64,000 nt of DNA from Halorientalis persicus (GCF_900110215.1 NZ_FOCX01000019.1:1-64000); one strand, 5' to 3'. Positions 8,535 through 22,822 are shown, counted from the stretch's first letter. Numbers and translations: made by a program. The notes: generated by a model not told the origin, from the letters alone.

Positions 8535-9416
8535 ATGAGTTACCAGGGAAACGATCCGAACCGACGACGGGAGCAACGGCGCACCGGAACGCCACAGCGT
8601 CAGCCACAGTCCGGACAGCCACGAGCCGGGCAGGGGCAGCAGTCACAGTGGCAGGGACAGCCCACACAGACACCCAAACAGCAGCCCCAGACACAGTTGA
8701 CACAGGAACCGAGTGGCGGCCAGCGACAACCAGGTGGTGGCCGACAGCCCGGTAGGCATCAGTCAGGTGTCCCGCAGGGAGGGATGCAACCTGGTAGCGG
8801 CCAACAATCATTGGGGCACCAGCAACAGCGGACACAGCCGCCACAGTCGGGCGCACAGGTCGGAACGCAGGGTGCCGGCCAGCACGGACAGTTCACCCAG
8901 CAGGCCAGCCTGGCTCAGTCGGCACCGGCGGCCGGGGCGAGTGGAATGGGAGCCCCCCCACAGCCTCGTCGGACGCGCCTGTCGCCGTCGAGCGTCGAGG
9001 ATGTCGTCAGTACCGATCTGGTTACCGCGACGCGTGACACGCCGCTCGCGACGGTCGCCGCGATGATGAACGAAAACGACGTGGGCTGTGTGATCGTCGT
9101 CGAGGACGACGAGGAGACGCCGATCGGCGTTCTCACCGACCGCAAAATCGCGCTGGCGGTGGAGTCGGAACCGGAGATCGGCAAGCGGACTGCCGAGGAA
9201 CTCGTCTCGTCGGACCTCCTCACTGGCCGGACCGATATGACCGTCTTCGAGGCGCTGGACAAACTCAAGCAAGCCGGCGTCCGTCGGCTACCGATCGTCG
9301 ACGAGGCGGGCACCCTCACCGGTATCGTCACGCTCGACGACCTGCTCGTCTTGCTCGGCACCAACCTCGGCGACGCGGCCGATATCATCGCCGCCCAGAC
9401 CACCCGGCACTCCTGA
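8535..9416 (+). CDS. CBS-domain pair protein with Gln-rich N-terminal region
   Basis: A 293-residue protein in two parts. Residues 1 to about 145 are low complexity, rich in Gln, Gly, Pro, Ser and Arg, and predicted disordered. Residues about 150-285 are a tandem CBS pair: VEDVVSTDLVTATRDTPLATV and GVLTDRKIAL, then TAEELVSSDLLTG and VRRLPIVDEAGTLTGIVTLD. CBS pairs bind adenosyl ligands and act as energy or salt sensors. The first of four Gln-rich proteins in this 7.5 kb. The join is in one clean frame with no sign of error. Confidence 0.88.
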   Translation: MSYQGNDPNRRREQRRTGTPQRQPQSGQPRAGQGQQSQWQGQPTQTPKQQPQTQLTQEPSGGQRQPGGGRQPGRHQSGVPQGGMQPGSGQQSLGHQQQRTQPPQSGAQVGTQGAGQHGQFTQQASLAQSAPAAGASGMGAPPQPRRTRLSPSSVEDVVSTDLVTATRDTPLATVAAMMNENDVGCVIVVEDDEETPIGVLTDRKIALAVESEPEIGKRTAEELVSSDLLTGRTDMTVFEALDKLKQAGVRRLPIVDEAGTLTGIVTLDDLLVLLGTNLGDAADIIAAQTTRHS

Positions 9417-9622
9417 CCGTCCGGGCCGCGGCTACCGGCCGCGTATCCCTCTCCATCGCGTTCCTGGGAGGCAACCCCTCGATGCTGTCCCCTGCACCGC
9501 GATTATGTTCCGTATCGTTGCAGATCCCGAGGTCGTACGTACCAGTCGATACGGGATAGCGACCATTCTTTACAGTTGTACGTATGTAATTGATACGGTC
9601 GAGTGCGGTGTGGATGCGAGGG

Positions 9623-9922
9623 ATGACAGAAGACCTGCTCCTGCAGGCACCAGTCATTCACTGGCGAGGGTCGTCCGGCCGACGACCCACGATAGAACTC
9701 ACCGACGAGGACGAAGGGAAAGAAGTGGTGCGCAGTGACGATTCCGTCGGCCGCGTCGTCGAAGTCGATCGCGGGACAGCGTACGTCGACCCGGACCCGG
9801 GGATCACCGAGACGATCAAATCGAAGCTGGGCTGGGGTGATCGTGGCGACGAAGACACCGACCCGCTTCAGGAGGCGAGTATCGAGTCGGTCACCGACGA
9901 TCAGATCCGGCTCGAAGAGTAG
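9623..9922 (+). CDS. PRC-barrel domain protein
   Basis: The 99-residue product has a PRC-barrel from about residue 30: EDEGKEVVRSDDSVGRVVEV, GTAYVDPDPGITETIKSKLG and EASIESVTDDQIRL. Haloarchaea have many such stand-alone PRC-barrel proteins, some linked to cell division (CdpB family) and RNA metabolism. The start at ATG 9623 is my choice; the first 28 residues are unlike the family and the true start could be further in. A T-run follows the stop at 9941-9946. Confidence 0.75.
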   Translation: MTEDLLLQAPVIHWRGSSGRRPTIELTDEDEGKEVVRSDDSVGRVVEVDRGTAYVDPDPGITETIKSKLGWGDRGDEDTDPLQEASIESVTDDQIRLEE

Positions 9923-9945
9923 CGCCGACGGCGGGGCGTCGTTTT

Positions 9946-10176
9946 TCAGGCGGTCCAGGCGAGTTCGAGCGACAGTTCAGCCGTACACTCGGGACGCTGG
10001 ATCTGCCGGTCCTCGCCGGTCGTCTCCGTGTGGTTGGCGTCGCGCTGTCCCGAACAGCAGCCGGTCTCGACGATCCGGTGTAACGAGACCGTCGAGCCAC
10101 ACTCCGGACAGTCGATCAGGTACCCCTCCGCCGACTCGTGGAGTCCGTCCGGCAGGAGAGAACACGGATTACTCGC
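9946..10176 (-). CDS. Small zinc-ribbon protein lacking a normal start codon
   Basis: The minus strand has an uninterrupted frame reading ASNPCSLLPDGLHESAEGYL, then CPECGSTVSLHRIVETGCC and TAELSLELAWTA before TGA at 9946. Cys pairs (CPEC, CC, a late Cys) suggest metal binding. Between the upstream in-frame stop near 10193 and the protein there is no ATG, GTG or TTG. The natural start would fall where the codon GCG precedes SNPC (10174-10176). Either the start is mutated, or a CTG within the frame is used, or the gene is decaying. Confidence 0.5.
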   Translation of the reverse strand, partial: ASNPCSLLPDGLHESAEGYLIDCPECGSTVSLHRIVETGCCSGQRDANHTETTGEDRQIQRPECTAELSLELAWTA

Positions 10177-10296
10177 CGTAGTCTCTGATTACCGCCGGGA
10201 AGATCGGGTCTGGGGGTGACGTGTCGCTGTCGCCGACCGCGGCCGTAGGTGGAGAAAAACTTTTGGTAGCAGTCGTATAACTGACCCACGAGACAG

Positions 10297-10647
10297 ATGA
10301 ACAATCGCAACGTGTCACAGCGTGACCGGGCTAGAGTTTCACAGTCGGTCGGTCACCGGACACAACCGTACGTCGTCCACCACGACTTCGACGGGCCAGC
10401 GGAACTGACGACGACACTCGCACACGCCATCGCCGACGTCACCGGCTTCGAGGTCACGGAGACTGGCTTCACGCTGAGTGAGTACGTCGATCCGGACGCA
10501 CTCGACCGCCTGTTCTCCCCCAAATCCGACGGGACACCGCGGACGAACGGCCATCTCAGGTTCACGATCTGGAACTGTCAGGTCACCGTCTACAGCACCG
10601 GGCGGATCGTCATTACGCAGACCCAGCCACAGCCCAGCCACCAGTAA
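10297..10647 (+). CDS. HalOD1 output domain protein
   Basis: A 116-residue protein whose residues about 25-108 match the HalOD1 domain: YVVHHDFDGPAELTTTLAHA, IADVTGFEV, LSEYVDPDALDRLF and a C-terminal strand pair VTVYSTGRIVI. HalOD1 is a haloarchaeal domain often joined to response regulators; alone its role is unknown. The AT-rich stretch 10256-10280 (AAAAACTTTTGG, GTATAACT) probably holds the promoter. Confidence 0.85.
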   Translation: MNNRNVSQRDRARVSQSVGHRTQPYVVHHDFDGPAELTTTLAHAIADVTGFEVTETGFTLSEYVDPDALDRLFSPKSDGTPRTNGHLRFTIWNCQVTVYSTGRIVITQTQPQPSHQ

Positions 10648-10789
10648 GCAGGCCAGCGCTGTGGGCGCATTCGGCAGCCGAACGATCCAGTAGTAGCGAT
10701 CGTCACGCCCGGGGCGTGGCGGACAGAAACCGCTTACCGAAATCGGAGACTCGTCAACCCGGGGCTATCCGGGTAAACGATAGCAGTTG

Positions 10790-10796
10790 TTTATAC
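10790..10796 (+). promoter_or_regulatory. TATA-like element
   Basis: TTTATAC stands out in the GC-rich gap between the HalOD1 gene and the Gln-rich gene at 10894. It would give a leader of roughly 75 bases. Confidence 0.4.
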
Positions 10797-10893
10797 AGGC
10801 GCCGGGGGACGACAGGGACGCAGCGCCGAAAGCGGCGAGCATCTACCCGTACGTACCGGAACGGCAGACCCGGTTCGTTATCCACTGCAACCT

Positions 10894-11613
10894 ATGAGCC
10901 AGCAACAACAGACTCAGCAAGGAACCGGCGAGACGGGCACACAGACGGCACAGCTCCAGCAGACACTGATGGAGAACGGACGCAAAGCAATGCGCCAGTT
11001 CTTCGAGTTACCGATCCAGCAGACGCTACAGTTCCAGCGCAGTGCCGTGGAGCTGTTCGTGAACAGTATGGAGGCACAGCAGTTGGCACAGGATCGGAGG
11101 ATGGAGTTGACCAGGGAGACGATGCACAACTACCTCCGGACGCTCGACTCCGTCGCGCAGAACACCGAAGAGTTGGCCCAGTCGGAAATGGCCACAGCCC
11201 AACAGCAGGGCCAGGCGATGCAACAGGCGACGAGCGGATTGCAGGGCAACGGACAGCAGACATCACAACAGCAACCAGGTCCACAGCAGCCACAGGCGAT
11301 CGGACCGCAGGCGTGGGCCGGCGGGCACCAGAAACCACAGCCGATTCAACAGCCTCAGGGGATGGGCCAGCAGCCTCCCCAGATCGGCCAGCAACCCCAG
11401 GGCATGGGTCCACAACAGCCACCACGGAAACAGGGGATCCAACAGCCACTCGGTCAGCAACCGGCCGCCAGGGCGGAGGGCGAGCAACCGGCACCGAAGC
11501 CCGAACCTGCCGAGACCACACGACCGGAGGGCAGAGGCGAGGGGAGACCGACAGGCGCCAAGAGTGAAGGCGCTGGCAGGCCACAACAGGAGTCACTGAC
11601 AGAGACGCAGTAG
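10894..11613 (+). CDS. Gln-rich protein with phasin-like helical domain
   Basis: A 239-residue protein. Residues about 18-100 form an amphipathic helical region (LMENGRKAMRQFFELPIQQT, QRSAVELFVNSMEAQQLAQD, YLRTLDSVAQNTEELAQSEM) that resembles phasins, the proteins coating polyhydroxyalkanoate granules. The remainder to the C-terminus is Gln, Pro and Gly rich with repeats such as GMGQQPPQIGQQPQGMGPQQ. A granule-surface or condensate role is inferred. No PHA synthase gene is in the window, so the phasin reading rests on the sequence pattern alone. Confidence 0.75.
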   Translation: MSQQQQTQQGTGETGTQTAQLQQTLMENGRKAMRQFFELPIQQTLQFQRSAVELFVNSMEAQQLAQDRRMELTRETMHNYLRTLDSVAQNTEELAQSEMATAQQQGQAMQQATSGLQGNGQQTSQQQPGPQQPQAIGPQAWAGGHQKPQPIQQPQGMGQQPPQIGQQPQGMGPQQPPRKQGIQQPLGQQPAARAEGEQPAPKPEPAETTRPEGRGEGRPTGAKSEGAGRPQQESLTETQ

Positions 11614-11632
11614 TGGGCCGTGGCCGGGTCGA

Positions 11633-11638
11633 TTTTTT
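11633..11638 (+). terminator. T-run terminator after the Gln-rich gene
   Basis: Six T in a row follow the stop at 11613 by about 20 bases in GC-rich surroundings, the usual form of an archaeal terminator. Confidence 0.5.
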
Positions 11639-11654
11639 CTCCCGGGAGCGTCGT

Positions 11655-11973
11655 TCAGTCCTCGGTCCAGTACATCAGGTCCTCTCTGAGAACGTCGCAG
11701 TTGGGACACGTCGAGGGAAGTGGCCGTCGATCTCGCCCATCTCGCCGCAGTTCGTGCACCGCCACATCAGTTCGGCCTGCCCGAAAGAGTGACCGGAACG
11801 GGCGTGTTCGACGCTCAGCGACTCGACGTCTTCCCGGACAGGTAGAGACCGCCATCCTCGACGCCGCGAACGGTACCGACCGCGTGACCGTCTTCGGTGT
11901 AGAGTGTCTGCCCGAACGCGAGGTCGAACTCGGCGGGGTCGATCGTGTGGGGAGTTTCACCTCGTCCGCTCAT
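11655..11973 (-). pseudogene. DUF7130 rubredoxin-like zinc-ribbon protein, frameshifted
   Basis: Starting at ATG 11973 the minus strand reads FDLAFGQTLYTEDGHAVGTV and RGVEDGGLYLSGKTSSR, then stops. In a second frame it continues ESLSVEHARSGHSFGQAELM and WRCTNCGEMGEIDGH, and in a third frame it ends STCPNCDVLREDLMYWTED. Put together, these give a complete DUF7130 protein with two CxxC pairs. Two single-base shifts, near 11838 and 11722, break it. Either the gene died recently or these are assembly errors. Confidence 0.7.
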
Positions 11974-12242
11974 ACCGCGGCTTGCCTGTGGACGCGGAAA
12001 AAGGGACTGTCGGGTCGGTTGCCATCTCCGAAGGAACCCGATCGCTCCCAGCCCTGTAGAGCAGTTGCCGCGCTCTCACTGCCGGCCCCTCACCTGTTCG
12101 AGCGTGGCTGACGAAACTCCTTTGGACTGTGCGGACTGGCCGCTGTGCTGGAGTTGGCTCACTGGCTGACACCAGCTGGGTACTCCAACGACCGGGCCAA
12201 AGAGAGTTCGTGTGGGTCCGAGATACTGGCCGTTCCGGCGGT

Positions 12243-12362
12243 TCAGAACGACTGTTCTTCGTAGCCGAGTTCGGTATCGTTGGTCTCGCGGTCGCTGTAG
12301 AATTTCCGCCCGACGGCCTCGGCGCGTTTCGCCGAGCTTTCGGACCGCTCGACAGGGCGCAC
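12243..12362 (-). CDS. Possible 39-residue conserved-looking microprotein
   Basis: The minus-strand frame starting GTG 12362 gives RPVERSESSAKRAEAVGRKF then YSDRETNDTELGYEEQSF. The charged helical first half and acidic aromatic tail look protein-like rather than random. The frame is open further upstream (AVTPQYRIV), so the start may be earlier, but no ATG is present there. Function unknown. Confidence 0.35.
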   Translation of the reverse strand: MRPVERSESSAKRAEAVGRKFYSDRETNDTELGYEEQSF

Positions 12363-12433
12363 GATTCGGTACTGCGGCGTTACCGCGACTAGCCAGTGAA
12401 TAGTAAAAGCCGCGCCCCGTCTGGACCCCACGC

Positions 12434-13105
12434 ATGGGTACGATCGTGGAGGCACAGATCCCGGCGTCGGAGTTCGCGCTCGGTGACACGGTGGCGGCGG
12501 TTCCGGACGCCTCGTTCGAGACCGTCCGCACGGTTACGACCGGGACGGATCAGCCGATACCGTTCCTGTGGGCCTCGGCACCGGCGTTCGATCGACTGGA
12601 CGAAACACTGCGTGGCGACGACAGTACTGCCGAGGTACGCCGGCTCATCCGGAACGAGAATCACGTCCTCTATCGCGTCCGCTGGCAGGATCGGGTTCGC
12701 GAGCTGGCCGACTTCGTCGCCGCGGAGGACGGCACGCTCTTAGACGCCCGACTTCACGGGAGGACCTGGAAACTTCGCGTCCTCTTCCCGGAGAAGGCGG
12801 CCATGTCGTCGTTCTACGACACCTGCCGGGCCTACGGCGTCACCATCGACGTGAGCCGGGTGAACGGCCTCGAAAGCGTGGTCCGCCACGGGGGCACGCG
12901 GCTCTCAGCCGAGCAGTACGAGGCACTCTCCGAGGCACTCGAAGCGGACTACTACGGGGTGCCGCGAGGGTCGACGCTGGTCGAACTGTCCGACCGCCTC
13001 GACGTATCTCATCAGGCGGTCTCGGAGCGCCTCCGTCGGGCACACCAGTCCCTCATCGAATCGTCGCTCCACGACGGCCTCACGCCGGACGAACCACATC
13101 CGTGA
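12434..13105 (+). CDS. HTH-10 (Bat-type) transcriptional regulator
   Basis: This 223-residue protein has an N-terminal sensor region (about 1-150) and the C-terminal HTH-10 domain of the bacterioopsin-activator family: LSAEQYEALSEALEADYYGV, PRGSTLVELSDRLDVSHQAV and SERLRRAHQSLIES. Such proteins are haloarchaeal DNA-binding regulators. ATG 12434 has an AT-rich element (GAATAGTAAAAG) near 12400, the spacing expected for a leaderless promoter. The target genes are unknown. Confidence 0.9.
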   Translation: MGTIVEAQIPASEFALGDTVAAVPDASFETVRTVTTGTDQPIPFLWASAPAFDRLDETLRGDDSTAEVRRLIRNENHVLYRVRWQDRVRELADFVAAEDGTLLDARLHGRTWKLRVLFPEKAAMSSFYDTCRAYGVTIDVSRVNGLESVVRHGGTRLSAEQYEALSEALEADYYGVPRGSTLVELSDRLDVSHQAVSERLRRAHQSLIESSLHDGLTPDEPHP

Positions 13106-13229
13106 GCGCCTCACGACCCCCGACCGCAGAGAGATTAAAACAGCATCGTCAGGGCAGACAAGCAGGGCCGGGACACCAGCACCACCAGTACTGAGATGCA
13201 CACGAGCGGTAGCCGTCACTGACGGTTCG

Positions 13230-14081
13230 TCAGCCAGGTCTTCCGTCCCTTCCAGTACCTTCGTAGGCAAGTTCGGCTTTCGGGGGGCTACGGCCGGCGA
13301 GAACGACGTTCGCGACGCCGCCGAGCAGGAAGATCAGCGAGGCGAAGTAGAGCCAGGTGATCAACAGGAGAACGCCACCGAGGACACCGTACAGTTCCGC
13401 GGTCGAGGAGATGGAGATGTACACCTGAAAGAGCAGTTGGAGGAGCGTCCAGCCGACGACCGAGACGATTACGCCGGGCACGGCTTCGAGAGGGGCGATG
13501 TCCACGTCCGGGAAGACGTAGTAGACGGGGTAGAATGCGGCCGAGAGCGCCGCGATCAGAAAGAGGACGTTGAGAACGCCCAGAAAAGGGATCTGCGGGA
13601 CCATCGCGAACACGAGTCCAGCGAACAACATCGCGATCATCGCGCCGGCCATCGCGGCGATCACGATCAACGCGTCGGTGAGCTGTTTCCGGAGCGAGCC
13701 GCGACCGTCCGTGCCGTACAGCTGTGCAAAAGCGGTATCGAGCCGTCGAAACAGGGTGAGCGCCCCCCACGAGAGCGCCAGGAAGCCCAGCACGGAGAGT
13801 CCGAACCGGCCACTGGCGTGTGTCAGTGCGTCGAAGACGACGTTCTGTCCGGCCGGCGAGAGGTAGCGTCTGGTGAGCGACAGGACGACCGCGACCAGTT
13901 CCTCGCCGCCGATCCACGAGACTGCGAGGACGACTAGCAACATGAACGGGAGCAGGGAGACGAACGCCGAGTACGCGAGGCTCCCGGCCATGAACGGTAC
14001 GTCGCGCTCACGAAACTCCGCGACGATGTCGCGGACGAGTGTCGTCGCGTCGTCGACGGGCTTGGGCCAGGCGATGCTCAT
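13230..14081 (-). CDS. YihY/BrkB family membrane protein
   Basis: A 283-residue integral membrane protein with about six hydrophobic spans. It has the family pattern near the N-terminus (FRERDVPFMAGSLAYSAFVS, then LLPFMLLVVLAVSWIGG) and GVLLLITWLYFASLIFLLGG near the C-terminus. The family's function is uncertain; transport or envelope roles have been proposed. It stands alone between the HTH-10 gene and the Gln-rich gene. Confidence 0.9.
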   Translation of the reverse strand: MSIAWPKPVDDATTLVRDIVAEFRERDVPFMAGSLAYSAFVSLLPFMLLVVLAVSWIGGEELVAVVLSLTRRYLSPAGQNVVFDALTHASGRFGLSVLGFLALSWGALTLFRRLDTAFAQLYGTDGRGSLRKQLTDALIVIAAMAGAMIAMLFAGLVFAMVPQIPFLGVLNVLFLIAALSAAFYPVYYVFPDVDIAPLEAVPGVIVSVVGWTLLQLLFQVYISISSTAELYGVLGGVLLLITWLYFASLIFLLGGVANVVLAGRSPPKAELAYEGTGRDGRPG

Positions 14082-14374
14082 GCCCTGCCTCGCCCTCGAC
14101 GGAAGCGTGGCTCCCGCTCCATCCGTGCTCGCCTATAGGGCCGGACGCACTTATCGCTCGCGGGGTGTCCCGTCAGTGACACCACGGGAGGGGTCTCCGG
14201 CAACTCGACACGCGAGTTCGTGATCTTTCTGGCGGCCGCGACGTGACGCCGGATCTGGCGGCACGTGACCGACGACGGTCGGCTCCGTCGTGTGAAAACT
14301 GCGAGTGAAGCCCGCCACGGGCTACGGCGGTCCAGGCGCGATTCGGGGGTCGAGATACGGTCAGTCGTCAGAGA

Positions 14375-15298
14375 TCAGCGCTGTTGCTGGAACTGTCCCT
14401 CTTTCTGGCCCTGGTGGCGCTGCTGAGTCCGCTGTTTGTACTGGAGGCCGCCCTGTGACTGCTGTGAACCCTGCTGGCTCTCGATGGGCTGTTGTTGTTG
14501 GTCGCCCTGCTGTTGTTGTTCCTGCTGGCCCAGCTGGGTCCTGAACTGTTCCTGCTTGAATCCCTGCTGGGGCTGTTGTTGCTGGCCCAGCCCGGGCTGT
14601 TGGTGCCGGCTGGCTCGCCGACCCTGGTTCTGGATGCCTTGCTGGCCCTGATTCTGGATGCTTTGCTGTGGCTGTTGCTGGAACGTCTGTGGCTGCTGTT
14701 GCCGCCCCATCTGGCGTCGGGGCTGGTGCTGCTGGATCTCCTGGGGCTGGTGCTGGAACGTCTGTGGCTGCTGTTGCTGCCCCATCTGGCGTCGGGGCTG
14801 GTGTTGTTGGATCTCCTGGGGCTGGTGCTGGGCCCGCTGTCGCTGTTGGCTCTGTTGTTGCGGCTGCACCTGCTGTTGACCCTGTCCGGGTGTTCCGCCA
14901 CCGCCGACGAACTGCCCGCTCTGTCCGTGCTGGGGCATCTGGTGTGATTGCTGGGGCTGGACGGACTCCGTCTGGGGCTGCTGGGAGAGTTGCTGTGGCG
15001 ACATCCCGGCACCCTGGGGTTGCTGGGTCGGCTGTTGCTGTGACGGGCCGATCCGCTGGTGGCTCTGTCGCCCGACCTGTTCACGCTGCTTTCCGTGCTG
15101 CTGTGGTTCCTGCACGAACTGCCCCGTGCGCGGATCGCGGGGCTGCAACTCGGCCTGACTGGCCTCGTCCTCGCGGAACGCCTGACTCCGAGGCCGGTCG
15201 CTAGCTCCCTGCTCAGCACCACGTCCCTGCTGGCCCTGGCGCTGCTGGCGCTGTCCTCGCTGGCTCTGTCCCTGCTGATACGGATTTTGCTGGTTCAT
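14375..15298 (-). CDS. Gln-rich low-complexity protein
   Basis: A 307-residue protein made almost wholly of Gln, Pro, Gly, Arg and Ser, with no hydrophobic core, so it should be disordered. The N-terminus is MNQQNPYQQGQSQRGQRQQR. Around residue 50 is a less simple stretch (AFREDEASQAELQPRDPRTG QFVQ). A 25-residue unit (QPQEIQQHQPRRQMG, then QQQPQTFQ) occurs twice in tandem. That the frame stays open for 307 codons while the repeats vary by substitution argues for selection. It probably promotes self-association. The opposite strand is also open, as a by-product of CAG-rich codons. Confidence 0.75.
   Translation of the reverse strand: MNQQNPYQQGQSQRGQRQQRQGQQGRGAEQGASDRPRSQAFREDEASQAELQPRDPRTGQFVQEPQQHGKQREQVGRQSHQRIGPSQQQPTQQPQGAGMSPQQLSQQPQTESVQPQQSHQMPQHGQSGQFVGGGGTPGQGQQQVQPQQQSQQRQRAQHQPQEIQQHQPRRQMGQQQQPQTFQHQPQEIQQHQPRRQMGRQQQPQTFQQQPQQSIQNQGQQGIQNQGRRASRHQQPGLGQQQQPQQGFKQEQFRTQLGQQEQQQQGDQQQQPIESQQGSQQSQGGLQYKQRTQQRHQGQKEGQFQQQR
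14679..14828. repeat. 75-bp tandem duplication inside the Gln-rich gene
   Basis: Two nearly identical 75-base units, 14679-14753 and 14754-14828, differ at a few positions. Each encodes 25 residues, so the reading frame is kept. Confidence 0.85.
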
Positions 15299-15487
15299 AG
15301 GTGGTCCTGCGCTGCTGTCAGCGTGGTGTCGGTGCCGTGGTATCGCGGCCGAGGAATCGATCTCGGGACCGCGTCACCGTGGTCGGTCACAACACCATCG
15401 GGCCCTGCCATGGCGTCGTCATTAACCGTTTCGTCGGTTCGGATCGCTAAGACGACGTTACTCCGTTTCGTCGGGATTTGGCCCTCG

Positions 15488-15979
15488 CTAGAATCCCTGA
15501 GACATCCCGCCGGACTGGCCGATACGCTGTGTGCCACCGGTCTGCATTCCGCCGCCCTGGGGGGCTCCCATCTCCTGCTGGATGGTCTGGATCGTGTCCC
15601 CGAGAACGCGGGCACACTCCTGGCAGTGGTCCCGGTCGTGCTGGCCACACTCTTGGGCGCAGGCCTGAACGGCCTGCTGGAAGGTCTGGAGGATCGACCG
15701 TCCGAACCGGGAGTTCCGCGGCACCATGGCGAGTGCGGTCTCACCGATCTCGGTCACGTCGTGACAGAGCCGGATGCACTCGGTCATCTGGGGATTGCTC
15801 TCCCGGATGCACTCGTCTGCACACCAGCCACACACCTCGACGGCGCGGGCGATGCTGTCGGCGAGGTGGCGGGACTGGTGGCCCATCTGCTGTTGCTGGC
15901 CGCCTGGGCGGCCGGCGGTCGCGCTCTGCTGGCCGTAGGTCTGTGCGCCTGTCGTCTGCTGGAACTGTCCTGCAGTCAT
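15488..15979 (-). CDS. Four-helix Cys-rich copper-binding (Csp-like, DUF326) protein with Gln-rich ends
   Basis: A 163-residue protein. The core, about residues 33-135, has helices with spaced cysteines: VEVCGWCADECI, MTECIRLCHDV, AVQACAQECG and DHCQECARVLG. This is the pattern of copper storage proteins, in which Cys on the inside of a four-helix bundle bind Cu(I). Both ends are Gln/Gly rich (GGQQQQMGHQS; GAPQGGGMQTGGTQRIGQSG). It lies behind the Gln-rich gene on the same strand, upstream of it in the direction of transcription. Confidence 0.85.
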   Translation of the reverse strand: MTAGQFQQTTGAQTYGQQSATAGRPGGQQQQMGHQSRHLADSIARAVEVCGWCADECIRESNPQMTECIRLCHDVTEIGETALAMVPRNSRFGRSILQTFQQAVQACAQECGQHDRDHCQECARVLGDTIQTIQQEMGAPQGGGMQTGGTQRIGQSGGMSQGF

Positions 15980-16126
15980 TGTTCGACGGGCGGTCGACGC
16001 CCGACGGGGTGTATCACCACCCGGTCAATAGGTATAACACGGTTATCGCCAGTAACGCGGGCGTATTCTGTCGCATGGTCCGGTAGCGTCCATTCCGTGT
16101 CCGGCGGACATCGCGACCACGCCGAG

Positions 16127-16486
16127 TCAGACACCGGGTACCCCGGCCGCGTCGAACGTCGTCACGCCGAGCACCGCGAGGAGACCGACGACGAGAATCG
16201 AGGCGAGCCAGGCGATCAAGGCGATGCCGATCGCGTTCAGCCAGCCGCCGGGGTACCGGTAGTTGATGACGGCGACGTACGCGATCAGGGCGACGATGGG
16301 GCCCAGCAGGGGGATCCAGCCGATCAGGACGGCGACGAGCGTCCAGACGACAGCCCCGATCAGCGCGGTGATCAGGGCGTAGCTGTAGTCGTCGGTGTCC
16401 GTGATCACGCGCGCGCCGGCGTAGATACCGAGGGCACCGATGAGGAGACTCACCGCGAAGACGATCACGGAGTCGATGAGGGCCAT
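16127..16486 (-). CDS. Small four-span membrane protein (copy 1)
   Basis: A 119-residue protein with four hydrophobic segments: SVIVFAVSLLIGALGIYAGA, ALITALIGAVVWTLVAVLIG, IPLLGPIVALIAYVAVINYR and GIALIAWLASILVVGLLAVL. It ends VTTFDAAGVPG. The protein at 38609-38968 has the same length, layout and ending, so the two are paralogues. Function unknown. The start is supported by the element CATAACAA 30 bases upstream. Confidence 0.8.
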   Translation of the reverse strand: MALIDSVIVFAVSLLIGALGIYAGARVITDTDDYSYALITALIGAVVWTLVAVLIGWIPLLGPIVALIAYVAVINYRYPGGWLNAIGIALIAWLASILVVGLLAVLGVTTFDAAGVPGV

Positions 16487-20141: not shown

Positions 20142-21164
20142 TCACACGCCCGTGGTAACGCGGCGGCCGAGCCAGTCGAGAAAGGGAGCGACCCCGCGTT
20201 GGTACCTGAGGCGATATCGGGCGGCAGTATCACGTCTCCCCACGTGAACGCCGACATCTCCAGCCCGGAGAGTCCGAAAGACGTCTTCGTCGGTCGTATC
20301 GTCACCGAGATAGACGGCACGGTACCCGTCGGGAAGCGTCGTCCGGAGCCACTGGAGCGCCTGGCCCTTGTCCCAGTCGATGTCAGGCCGTATCTCGACG
20401 GACTTTCGCCCGGAGACGAGGCACAACCCATCGTCCAGCCGTGGGGCGAGTGCATCGATCCGTTCGACCACGCCGCGCTGGAGCGCTGGCGGGACCTGTC
20501 GATAGTGGACCGTCAGCGAGAGCGTCTTGTCTTCGATCAGACAGCCGGGAACGTCACCGAGCGTCTGTCCGACGAGGTCCACGGCGTGGTCGAGGGCAGG
20601 TCTGTAGCGTCGCGCTGCTGGATGGATCACGCTGTCTGGCCCACGCGCCAGTTCCAGCCCGTGATTGCCGGCGTAGACCGCACCCGCGACCTCGGCCCGC
20701 GGCCGAAGATCGGCGATTTCACGCCCGCTCACGACGGCGACGACAGTGTCGACGCTCGCCGCGAGCCTGGCGAGCGCGACTGCATTGGCCGGTGTGATGT
20801 GGGGATCGTCGGGGTCCGGTGCGATGGGGGCGAGAGTCCCGTCGAAATCGACACCGACCAGCAGCCCCGACCCCCGTTCCAGCCGGCCCGCGATTTCGCC
20901 AAGGTTCGTGGCCGCCGGTTTCGTCCGGGCATCGGTCGGTGGAGCCGAGGACGCCGCTCGTTTCGGCACCCGCTCGTTTTCCGGCCCGTTCGTCTGTCCC
21001 GGTTCGTTCGTCCGTCGCTCGTGATTCGGTGTGTACATTCGTCGTTCGTGGTCGGAGTGATGTCGGGGATCGATGTCGTGTTCGGGATCGGTGTCGTGTG
21101 TTACGTCGGCTGGTGTCGGACTCGTGGCTGCTTCCCGTCCTGTCGGAGACACTGGCTGACCCAC
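20142..21164 (-). CDS. otsB: Trehalose-6-phosphate phosphatase
   Basis: A HAD-superfamily phosphatase of up to 340 residues that removes the phosphate of trehalose-6-phosphate. The DxD nucleophile motif is GVDFDGTLAPIAPDPDD (Asp106, Asp108). VVSGREIADL, YAGNHGLELARG, KGQALQWLR and YLGDDTTDEDVF follow in the family order. About 90 N-terminal residues are low-complexity and polar, unlike the usual enzyme. ATG 21164 overlaps otsA by 64 bases; ATG 21038 inside the tail is an alternative. Trehalose is a compatible solute in several haloarchaea. Confidence 0.92.
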   Translation of the reverse strand: MGQPVSPTGREAATSPTPADVTHDTDPEHDIDPRHHSDHERRMYTPNHERRTNEPGQTNGPENERVPKRAASSAPPTDARTKPAATNLGEIAGRLERGSGLLVGVDFDGTLAPIAPDPDDPHITPANAVALARLAASVDTVVAVVSGREIADLRPRAEVAGAVYAGNHGLELARGPDSVIHPAARRYRPALDHAVDLVGQTLGDVPGCLIEDKTLSLTVHYRQVPPALQRGVVERIDALAPRLDDGLCLVSGRKSVEIRPDIDWDKGQALQWLRTTLPDGYRAVYLGDDTTDEDVFRTLRAGDVGVHVGRRDTAARYRLRYQRGVAPFLDWLGRRVTTGV

Positions 21165-22822
21165 GAGTCGAGGTCCCGCTCGGACACGGCCCGGGAAAGG
21201 CCGTCCATCCGCCGTCGGCGCTCGTCGTCCGGCATCGCGAGCGCGTCCTCGATCGTCGTGGCGAAGTCGGACACGTCACAGGGATTGAGCGCGAGCGCGT
21301 GTTCACCGAACTCGTCGTACGCACCAGTCCCCCGACTCAGCAGGAGGACGCCCGGATCGGAACCCTGCGCGGCGACGTACTCCTGGGCGACGAGGTTCAT
21401 CCCGTCCCTGAGCGGACTGACGATGCCGAGATCGGCCTCGCGGTAGAGCCCGAACAGTTCTGCCTGGGAGAGGTGGGCTGTCGTGTAGACGACCGGTTGC
21501 CAGTCGTCGGTGCCGAACCGGTCGTTCAGTCGCTCAACACAGTCGGCGACCTCCTCCTGGATCGCTCTGTACGCCGGGATCGTCTCCCGGGTGACGCTCC
21601 CGACCTGGATGTACGTGAGGTCGCCACGGAGGTCGGGCGTATCGTCCAGCAGGGATTCGAGCGCGCGAAGCCGTTCCGGAATGCCCTTCGAGTAGTCGAG
21701 CCGGTCGACGCCGACGGCCAGCGTCGTGCCCGCTTCGATACCGTGTTGGGCCCGAAGCCGAGCGGGGAACGCGGTCGCCTCCGCCGTCGTCGCGGTCTCG
21801 GCGACGTCGTCGACCGGGACACCCATCGGGATAGCACGGATAGAGATCTCTCGGTCGCGATAGCGAACGCGACGATCGGACCAGTCGACGGCCGCGTCGT
21901 CGACGGCGGTCGAAACACACTCGAGGAAGTTCTCGGCGTACCGATTCGTGTGGAATCCGATCCGGTCAGCGCCGAGCAAGCCCCGGACGAGGTCCTGGCG
22001 TCGTGGACAGGCGCGGAACGTGTTCCAGTCCGGCCACGGGATATGCCAGAACTGCGCCACGTCGACCGCGGAGCCGAGCTGGCGACGGATCGCACGCGGG
22101 GCGAGCGCGAGGTGGTAGTCGTGAATCCAGATCGTCGTGTCGGCGAGGACGTCGTCGGACGCGCTCGTCGCGGCGTTCGCGGCGAATCGCTGATTCACCG
22201 TTCGGTAGGCGTCCCAGAACGCCCCGTCACAGTGTACGTGACCCAGAAACGAGTGGCAAAGCGGCCACAGCACCTGGTTGCTGAACCCGTAGTAGTAGTT
22301 CTGGACCTCGGCATCGGAGAGCCAGACGCGACGCAACGTGTACTCACCCTGCTCGCGGTCGTCGGTGCGGGATCGATCCGACGACACGGCGTTACTGGAC
22401 GAGTCCTCGGACGGGGGGACCGTCACGCGACCAACATCGTCGACGACCGCCCGATCTGCATCGCCGTCCCCCCAGGCGATCCACGTGCCGCCGAGTTCAC
22501 GCATCACCGGATCGAGACCGGCGGTGACACCCCCAGTTGGCCGGTCCACGGTGACCGTCTCGCCGTCGTACTCGTGGCTGTAGGGCTGCCGATTCGAGAC
22601 CACGATCAGGTTTCGACCACCGTTCCGTTCGCCCGGGGTGTCGACCCCGGAGTCGGGATCGAGATCGGCGTCGGTCCCGAGTGCCTTAGCGTGCCGGTTA
22701 CCTGGGTCCAAATCTCGCCCCGACATCGCTCCGCGTATGGGTTTTCGTTCCGATTTGCGATTCGTCGATCCGTGGACACCGGTCTCGTACCCGTTCGGCC
22801 GTGGTAGCGTATGGTCGTGCAT
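21101..22822 (-). CDS. otsA: Trehalose-6-phosphate synthase
   Basis: A GT20 glycosyltransferase that joins glucose from a nucleotide sugar to glucose-6-phosphate. Visible blocks are LIVVSNRQPYSHEY, PTGGVTAGLDPVM, YYYGFSNQVLWPLCH, IWIHDYHLALAP, GVDRLDYSKGIPERL and SPLRDGMNLVAQEYVAAQ. The start is uncertain: ATG 22822 gives 573 residues with a polar N-terminal extension, ATG 22726 gives 541, and the catalytic part begins about 40 residues after the latter. It is followed by otsB with overlap, so the pair is one operon. Confidence 0.93.
   Translation of the reverse strand: MHDHTLPRPNGYETGVHGSTNRKSERKPIRGAMSGRDLDPGNRHAKALGTDADLDPDSGVDTPGERNGGRNLIVVSNRQPYSHEYDGETVTVDRPTGGVTAGLDPVMRELGGTWIAWGDGDADRAVVDDVGRVTVPPSEDSSSNAVSSDRSRTDDREQGEYTLRRVWLSDAEVQNYYYGFSNQVLWPLCHSFLGHVHCDGAFWDAYRTVNQRFAANAATSASDDVLADTTIWIHDYHLALAPRAIRRQLGSAVDVAQFWHIPWPDWNTFRACPRRQDLVRGLLGADRIGFHTNRYAENFLECVSTAVDDAAVDWSDRRVRYRDREISIRAIPMGVPVDDVAETATTAEATAFPARLRAQHGIEAGTTLAVGVDRLDYSKGIPERLRALESLLDDTPDLRGDLTYIQVGSVTRETIPAYRAIQEEVADCVERLNDRFGTDDWQPVVYTTAHLSQAELFGLYREADLGIVSPLRDGMNLVAQEYVAAQGSDPGVLLLSRGTGAYDEFGEHALALNPCDVSDFATTIEDALAMPDDERRRRMDGLSRAVSERDLDSWVSQCLRQDGKQPRVRHQPT

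Follow-up and report, generated by a model that had tools for sequence, protein, structure and literature searches.

A cluster of four glutamine-rich (Q-rich) genes at 8,535-15,979 of the analysed sequence of Halorientalis persicus (GCF_900110215.1, NZ_FOCX01000019.1:1-64000; the whole 64,000 nucleotides are hereafter the window) belongs to a conserved haloarchaeal gene island with a proposed role in storage and stress. Domains of unrelated kinds, most of which form oligomers, are each extended there by a disordered Q-rich segment with almost no charge, and one or two almost pure Q-rich proteins are encoded alongside them. The explanation tentatively favoured here, at a little under an even chance, is that the island proteins may gather in a shared assembly with an almost pure-Q protein as scaffold, possibly on polyhydroxyalkanoate (PHA) granules. 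The four genes are the following:

8535..9416, + strand: CBS-Q, a CBS-pair protein with a Q/P/G-rich N-terminal half (Pfam CBS 5.2e-24, two stretches)
10894..11613, + strand: phasin-Q, a PhaP-like domain at about residues 1-105 with a Q/P-rich C-terminal tail (hhalign, profile match to PhaP)
14375..15298, - strand: pure-Q, an almost pure Q-rich protein, the candidate scaffold (40% Q; grand average of hydropathy, GRAVY, -2.05)
15488..15979, - strand: Csp-Q, a Csp3-fold protein with Q/G/M-rich ends and 9 Cys (AlphaFold2 (AF2) model, Foldseek, profile)

A first-pass annotation of this DNA had proposed these four Q-rich open reading frames, and all of them were recovered at these positions. The Q/P region that it described in the phasin-like protein was confirmed as the C-terminal half, and so were the Q-rich segments at both ends of the Csp-like protein; the Q/P/G region of the CBS-pair protein, described as a tail, is real but occupies the N-terminal half (about residues 1-150, holding 39 Q), and this N-terminal Q region is common to the relatives of CBS-Q in 13 genomes. 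The second CBS domain carries GIVTLDD, resembling the usual ligand motif; adenylate binding, and with it the adenylate sensing proposed in the first-pass annotation, is a candidate function suggested by the presence of the CBS pair.

The four proteins contain 14% (CBS-Q), 24% (phasin-Q), 40% (pure-Q) and 17% (Csp-Q) glutamine, against a background of about 2.6%. With a 40-amino-acid window holding at least 25% Q as the criterion, 4 of 784 background genes, called with a simple gene caller of our own across 800 kb evenly sampled from a same-genus chromosome (G075), were Q-rich, as compared with four genes in 7.5 kb of the window. Among the four background genes are one probably false antisense reading frame and one genuine pure-Q protein of 344 amino acids (L135:225-1259, contig C1 of G075), which is chromosomal and stands alone away from the island, indicating that pure-Q proteins occur outside it too.

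Relatives were collected from 146 genomes of the family by whole-genome searches run separately with Csp and with phasin, and 37 stretches were fetched from the matches, in which genes were called and clustered (790 in total); gene calls and family labels are mechanical and made in this analysis, the relatives were picked via a Csp or phasin match, and the island statistics ignore shared ancestry. Q-rich genes amounted to 87 of the 790, and 85 of these were Csp, CBS, phasin, pure-Q, Dps or a small protein termed F9, the other two being PhaP and its neighbour in the own-genome PHA locus, which had been fetched as a comparison; Q tails were not present on the 705 other neighbourhood genes. In an otherwise acidic proteome, the tails show a fraction of charged residues of 0.113 and a net charge per residue of +0.007, as against about 25% charged residues and -0.081 in the neighbouring proteins.

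Co-occurrence in relatives, whose absence the first-pass annotation had named among the findings that would refute its proposal, came out strongly in favour of that proposal: Csp-Q was found in 18 and phasin-Q in 20 of the 146 genomes, with both in 16, Csp-Q without phasin-Q in 2 and phasin-Q without Csp-Q in 4. The two genes lie on one contig, 3-23 kb apart, in 14 of the 16 genomes; in G065 the contig that holds both is 260 kb long and has one at each end (with 22 kb between them should it be circular), and in G107 they are on separate small contigs of a metagenome-assembled genome. In 12 of the 18 Csp-Q genomes the pure-Q gene shares the strand of Csp-Q and either adjoins it or lies one gene off, and a group of phasin-Q, pure-Q and the HalOD1-domain gene was found again in another family (G392). 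Gene order and strand of the island vary widely between genera, so that the linkage is maintained and not simply inherited, which argues for its being selected; this conservation in rearranged neighbourhoods is a stronger argument than chance rarity. Tail length changes rapidly between relatives. The island is carried on a plasmid or small replicon in several genomes, and ParA-like or Orc1/Cdc6-like genes were seen near it in L062, L064, L066, L068 and L061, fitting plasmid or secondary-replicon carriage.

The Csp-Q protein is modelled as a Csp3 four-helix bundle, with helices at 34-60, 63-88, 93-111 and 117-138; in the AF2 model the core reaches a pLDDT of 84-99 and the tails about 53-61, suggesting that the tails are disordered. 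Foldseek matched it to BsCsp3 (6wkt; TMt 0.90, rmsd 1.3) and its profile matched PDB 5fig at 2.4e-10 (hmmsearch), while the match to the Csp1 model TIGR04401 stayed at 25.1 bits (cutoff 100) and the Pfam search was uninformative for Csp-Q. When 80 named Csp loci were split into tailed and untailed as a control set, another Q-rich gene was present, among the loci scored, within about 10 kb of 10/14 tailed loci and of 1/51 untailed ones (Fisher p=6e-8), and a single branch of the core-only tree divides tailed from untailed members with support of 100/99. The tailed proteins have 8-9 Cys and occur in Haloarculaceae, Halorarius, Haladaptatus and Haloarchaeobius (the last with short ends), whereas untailed haloarchaeal Csps have 108-125 amino acids and 13-17 Cys. 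Exactly six Cys are gone from the tailed proteins, at window-protein positions 39/43, 100/104 and 129/133 (15 of 15 aligned), the same positions being Cys in 26-31 of 31 untailed members, and H114 and H118 are invariant across all aligned Csp members. Judged by their sequences, the Q-tailed Csps are a distinct subfamily of Csp3 with nine Cys.

As deduced from the topology of the model, the lost Cys would lie in the half of the up-down bundle where both tails emerge, and the nine kept Cys, with H114 and H118, in the half with the alpha3-loop-alpha4 mouth, which is the Cu(I) entry in Csp3s (PMC10155185). Csp-Q shares the bundle, the mouth His motif and nine core Cys with the Csp3s BsCsp3, MtCsp3 and SlCsp3, but the six Cys opposite the mouth are replaced, it has 9 Cys against the 16-19 tabulated for characterised Csp3s (PMC10155185), and its ends are long, Q/G-rich and disordered. 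The copper link made in the first-pass annotation thus stands as far as the fold is concerned, whereas bulk copper storage is doubtful because six of about 15 core Cys are gone; copper binding may persist. In two of five Haladaptatus loci the gene beside the tailed Csp encodes another Csp-like protein, Q-rich at its N-terminus and stripped of most of its Cys (L151:10603-11190, L153:10589-11158), a possible degenerate partner.

The PhaP-like domain of phasin-Q matched the PhaP alignment with a probability of 98.9% (hhalign, E=2.6e-17), and the phasin-Q profile matches the PhaP that adjoins PhaE/PhaC of the own genome (G000 C50) at E=5e-12, the PhaC of this phaE-phaC locus being above the TIGR01836 cutoff. 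The association with PHA proposed earlier is supported by this homology, with PHA binding predicted. A further PhaP homologue was found in 14/15 phasin-Q genomes and in 128/377 others (p=4e-6, not phylogeny-corrected), which fits a PHA role. The Pfam phasin models were uninformative, giving a single Phasin_2 match of E=0.12 in 1 of 19 phasin-Q members. Haloarchaeal PhaP and phasin-Q have a homologous N-terminal helical region, but phasin-Q is encoded away from phaEC and has its C-terminal half replaced by the Q/P-rich tail. With the carbonosome, a PHA granule with its protein coat, the island has a phasin-type member in common, and it differs in adding metal-storage, CBS and pure-Q proteins; its granule location is putative. 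Long Q-tailed PhaP-like phasins were also observed in other families, where they are solitary (L278:9898-11088 and L279:9133-10131; G152 and G178).

The islands of relatives add two further Q-rich proteins, and the own-genome island is without both. Dps-Q is a Dps/ferritin with Q-rich ends (Pfam Ferritin 1.2e-27; 146.8 bits against the NCBIfam Dps cutoff of 114); it has the ferritin domain of the Dps/DpsA mini-ferritins but differs from them in that both its N- and its C-terminus are extended by Q-rich segments with almost no charge. Its profile gave 12 matches in the 146 genomes, 11 of them within islands, and as it was built from 9 island members this count is a confirmation and no unbiased test; the twelfth match, in G088, has degenerate Csp fragments at a distance of about 4 kb. 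In the own genome, Dps is best matched by a DpsA of the usual kind that carries no Q tail. In F9 (alignment A4, with L066:5395-5742 and its relatives), a small conserved domain, MQIICKDGTTIQC...GFVPITEL.FV.PDE, is joined to a linker of acidic character and a Q-rich tail, and a Pfam scan of F9 gave no match; in several genomes, PhaP genes are found 20-40 kb away from chromosomal relatives of F9.

The shared scaffold, granule or condensate put forward in the first-pass annotation is plausible, and a shared assembly is better motivated because the tails are uncharged, the carriers multimeric and pure-Q adjoins Csp. In such an assembly, the Q-rich segments would act as weak homotypic stickers whose function survives molar KCl, a medium that screens charge-based contacts. 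Dps proteins are dodecamers. Since Csp3s are tetramers (PMC10155185), tails on such multimeric carriers would be multivalent, and the pure-Q protein would bridge them. The phasin domain would tether the assembly to PHA granules, and iron- and copper-binding proteins would be kept in one protective granule in stress or stationary phase. Largely uncharged intrinsically disordered proteins are reported to show re-entrant phase separation near 3 M salt (PMC13269793), and it is reasonable that uncharged segments preserve weak contacts in a molar-salt cytoplasm. The fuller proposal appears rather unlikely: a dedicated membraneless storage organelle of archaea in which a common code of uncharged Q-rich tails would bring iron, copper and polyester-granule proteins together on the pure-Q scaffold, and which would work in molar salt although ordinary charge-driven condensates would dissolve there. 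Like eukaryotic Q-rich prion-like and condensate domains, the island tails are low-complexity, uncharged, disordered Q-rich segments, but they are P- and G-mixed and archaeal, with self-assembly only predicted; Q-rich low-complexity occupancy is reported to be lower in archaea than in eukaryotes (PMC11132505).

Several observations weigh against a shared assembly. Self-association is so far a prediction from composition. The tails differ in composition, being P-rich in phasin and CBS and G/M-rich in Csp, and so need not bind one another; Q-tailed phasins alone in G152 and G178, and Q-tailed Csps without the cluster in Haladaptatus and G064, indicate that the tails do not require the full set. 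The AF2 model of phasin-Q (6 sequences) had a pLDDT of 50, and at this low confidence was not used. The island also holds many non-Q stress proteins, so that linkage alone may reflect co-regulation. Other genes in and near the island are the following:

9590..9922, + strand: small PRC-barrel-like protein (fam10) without a Q tail, a companion conserved in 9 genomes
10297..10647, + strand: HalOD1-domain protein (Pfam HalOD1 3.5e-21; 21 genomes)
11655..11973, - strand: DUF7130 companion gene, broken (intact relative Pfam DUF7130 1.2e-39)
12434..13105, + strand: BAT/HTH_10 regulator (Pfam HTH_10 2e-11, BAT 5e-11; 12 genomes)
13230..14081, - strand: YihY/BrkB membrane protein (Pfam 5.6e-36; 9 genomes)
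16127..16486, - strand: small hydrophobic protein (fam12), probably membrane, a companion conserved in 9 genomes
20142..22726, - strand: trehalose-phosphatase and trehalose-phosphate synthase-like pair, near the island in 6 genomes

The main rival explanation, itself improbable, is that the Q segments protect against desiccation or osmotic stress in the manner of hydrophilins, as flexible chains that retain water and keep the stress proteins to which they are fused soluble and hydrated in salt crystals, with no shared assembly. Hydrophilins are defined by Gly above 6% and strong hydrophilicity, and the pure-Q proteins (Gly 7.5-24%, GRAVY -2.0 to -2.6; 11.4% and -2.05 in the window) fall within these bounds; the stress-type neighbours also suit it, namely Dps, YihY, CBS and PRC-like proteins, a mechanosensitive-channel-like protein and, in 6 genomes, the trehalose-phosphate pair. 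This leaves unexplained why tails are restricted to few families when other island stress proteins are untailed, and why pure-Q adjoins Csp in most genomes. Quite unlikely are tails that serve each carrier separately, on the PHA surface, the Dps cage or Csp, as entropic bristles or solubility tags, with the genes linked only via shared stress regulation: the variable tail length and order, the Q-tailed phasins and Csps found alone and the candidate regulators HTH_10 and HalOD1 in the island would all agree with this, but Q, rare in these proteomes at 2.6%, was gained within one island by five or more folds that are unrelated, and paralogues elsewhere are without it. Neutral repeat expansion or hitch-hiking, with functionless tails lengthening through CAG-type slippage while a plasmid carries the island, is very unlikely. 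The pure-Q gene does grow partly through repeats, as seen from a 75-bp in-frame duplication, and rapid length change and plasmid or small-replicon location also point this way; but the CAG and CAA codons of that gene are mixed (98:25), the same folds keep their tails in different genera and in two or more families, and the 705 other neighbourhood genes are without them. A CAG slippage artefact as the main cause of the tails was rejected, the codons being mixed.

If the tails do assemble, the island would represent a genetically defined, portable example of proteins condensing in a cytoplasm of multi-molar salt and would offer a tail-code toolkit with the untailed paralogues as natural control. 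Regardless of assembly, it contains a Csp3 subfamily with the half of the copper core by the tails emptied and the copper mouth kept, and a PhaP family whose tails are disordered; Halosimplex and Haloarcula strains that can be cultured would allow direct tests of both. No description of a Q-tailed cluster was found in the open-access literature on Q-rich haloarchaeal proteins, haloarchaeal condensates, Dps and phasin, or hydrophilins.

Two candidate features of the Q-rich proteins were rejected. A conserved C-terminal aromatic cap as universal tag was present in 13/17 Csp-Q and 10/23 pure-Q proteins (overall p=0.18), and a secreted or surface matrix was set aside, no clear N-terminal hydrophobic signal being seen on any Q-rich protein and Csp being of the cytosolic Csp3 type. 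The poly-Q DNA pattern CARCARCARCAR had 6 of its 38 own-genome matches in the island and is weakly informative, the reversed control pattern being commoner.

Among the neighbouring genes, the HalOD1 protein is the companion found most widely and adjoins the phasin gene in most neighbourhoods; it scored 51.9 bits against NCBIfam DdfA, under the cutoff of 70. The PRC-barrel label of fam10 is a reading of its sequence, its true start is probably 9623, and Pfam scans of fam10 and fam12 gave no match. In the trehalose pair TIGR00685 is above its cutoff, with OtsA below (416 bits vs 565). The DUF7130 gene has two frameshifts and runs in three frames in the window, reflecting either decay or assembly errors, and is intact in G080 and G075. 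Compared with the same-genus islands L062 and L064, the region 8535-16486 is without DUF5789, a second PRC-like protein, a mechanosensitive-channel-like protein and a FAD/Rieske oxidoreductase, as if the own-genome island were eroded. A small family with a Q-containing N-terminus (L277:8170-8568 in G392, L089:17847-18134, L159:5482-5739) was also observed near tailed Csp or phasin genes, and its conserved, acidic C-terminal domain reads about V.EHP....D.Y.L...FNP..D.WE.

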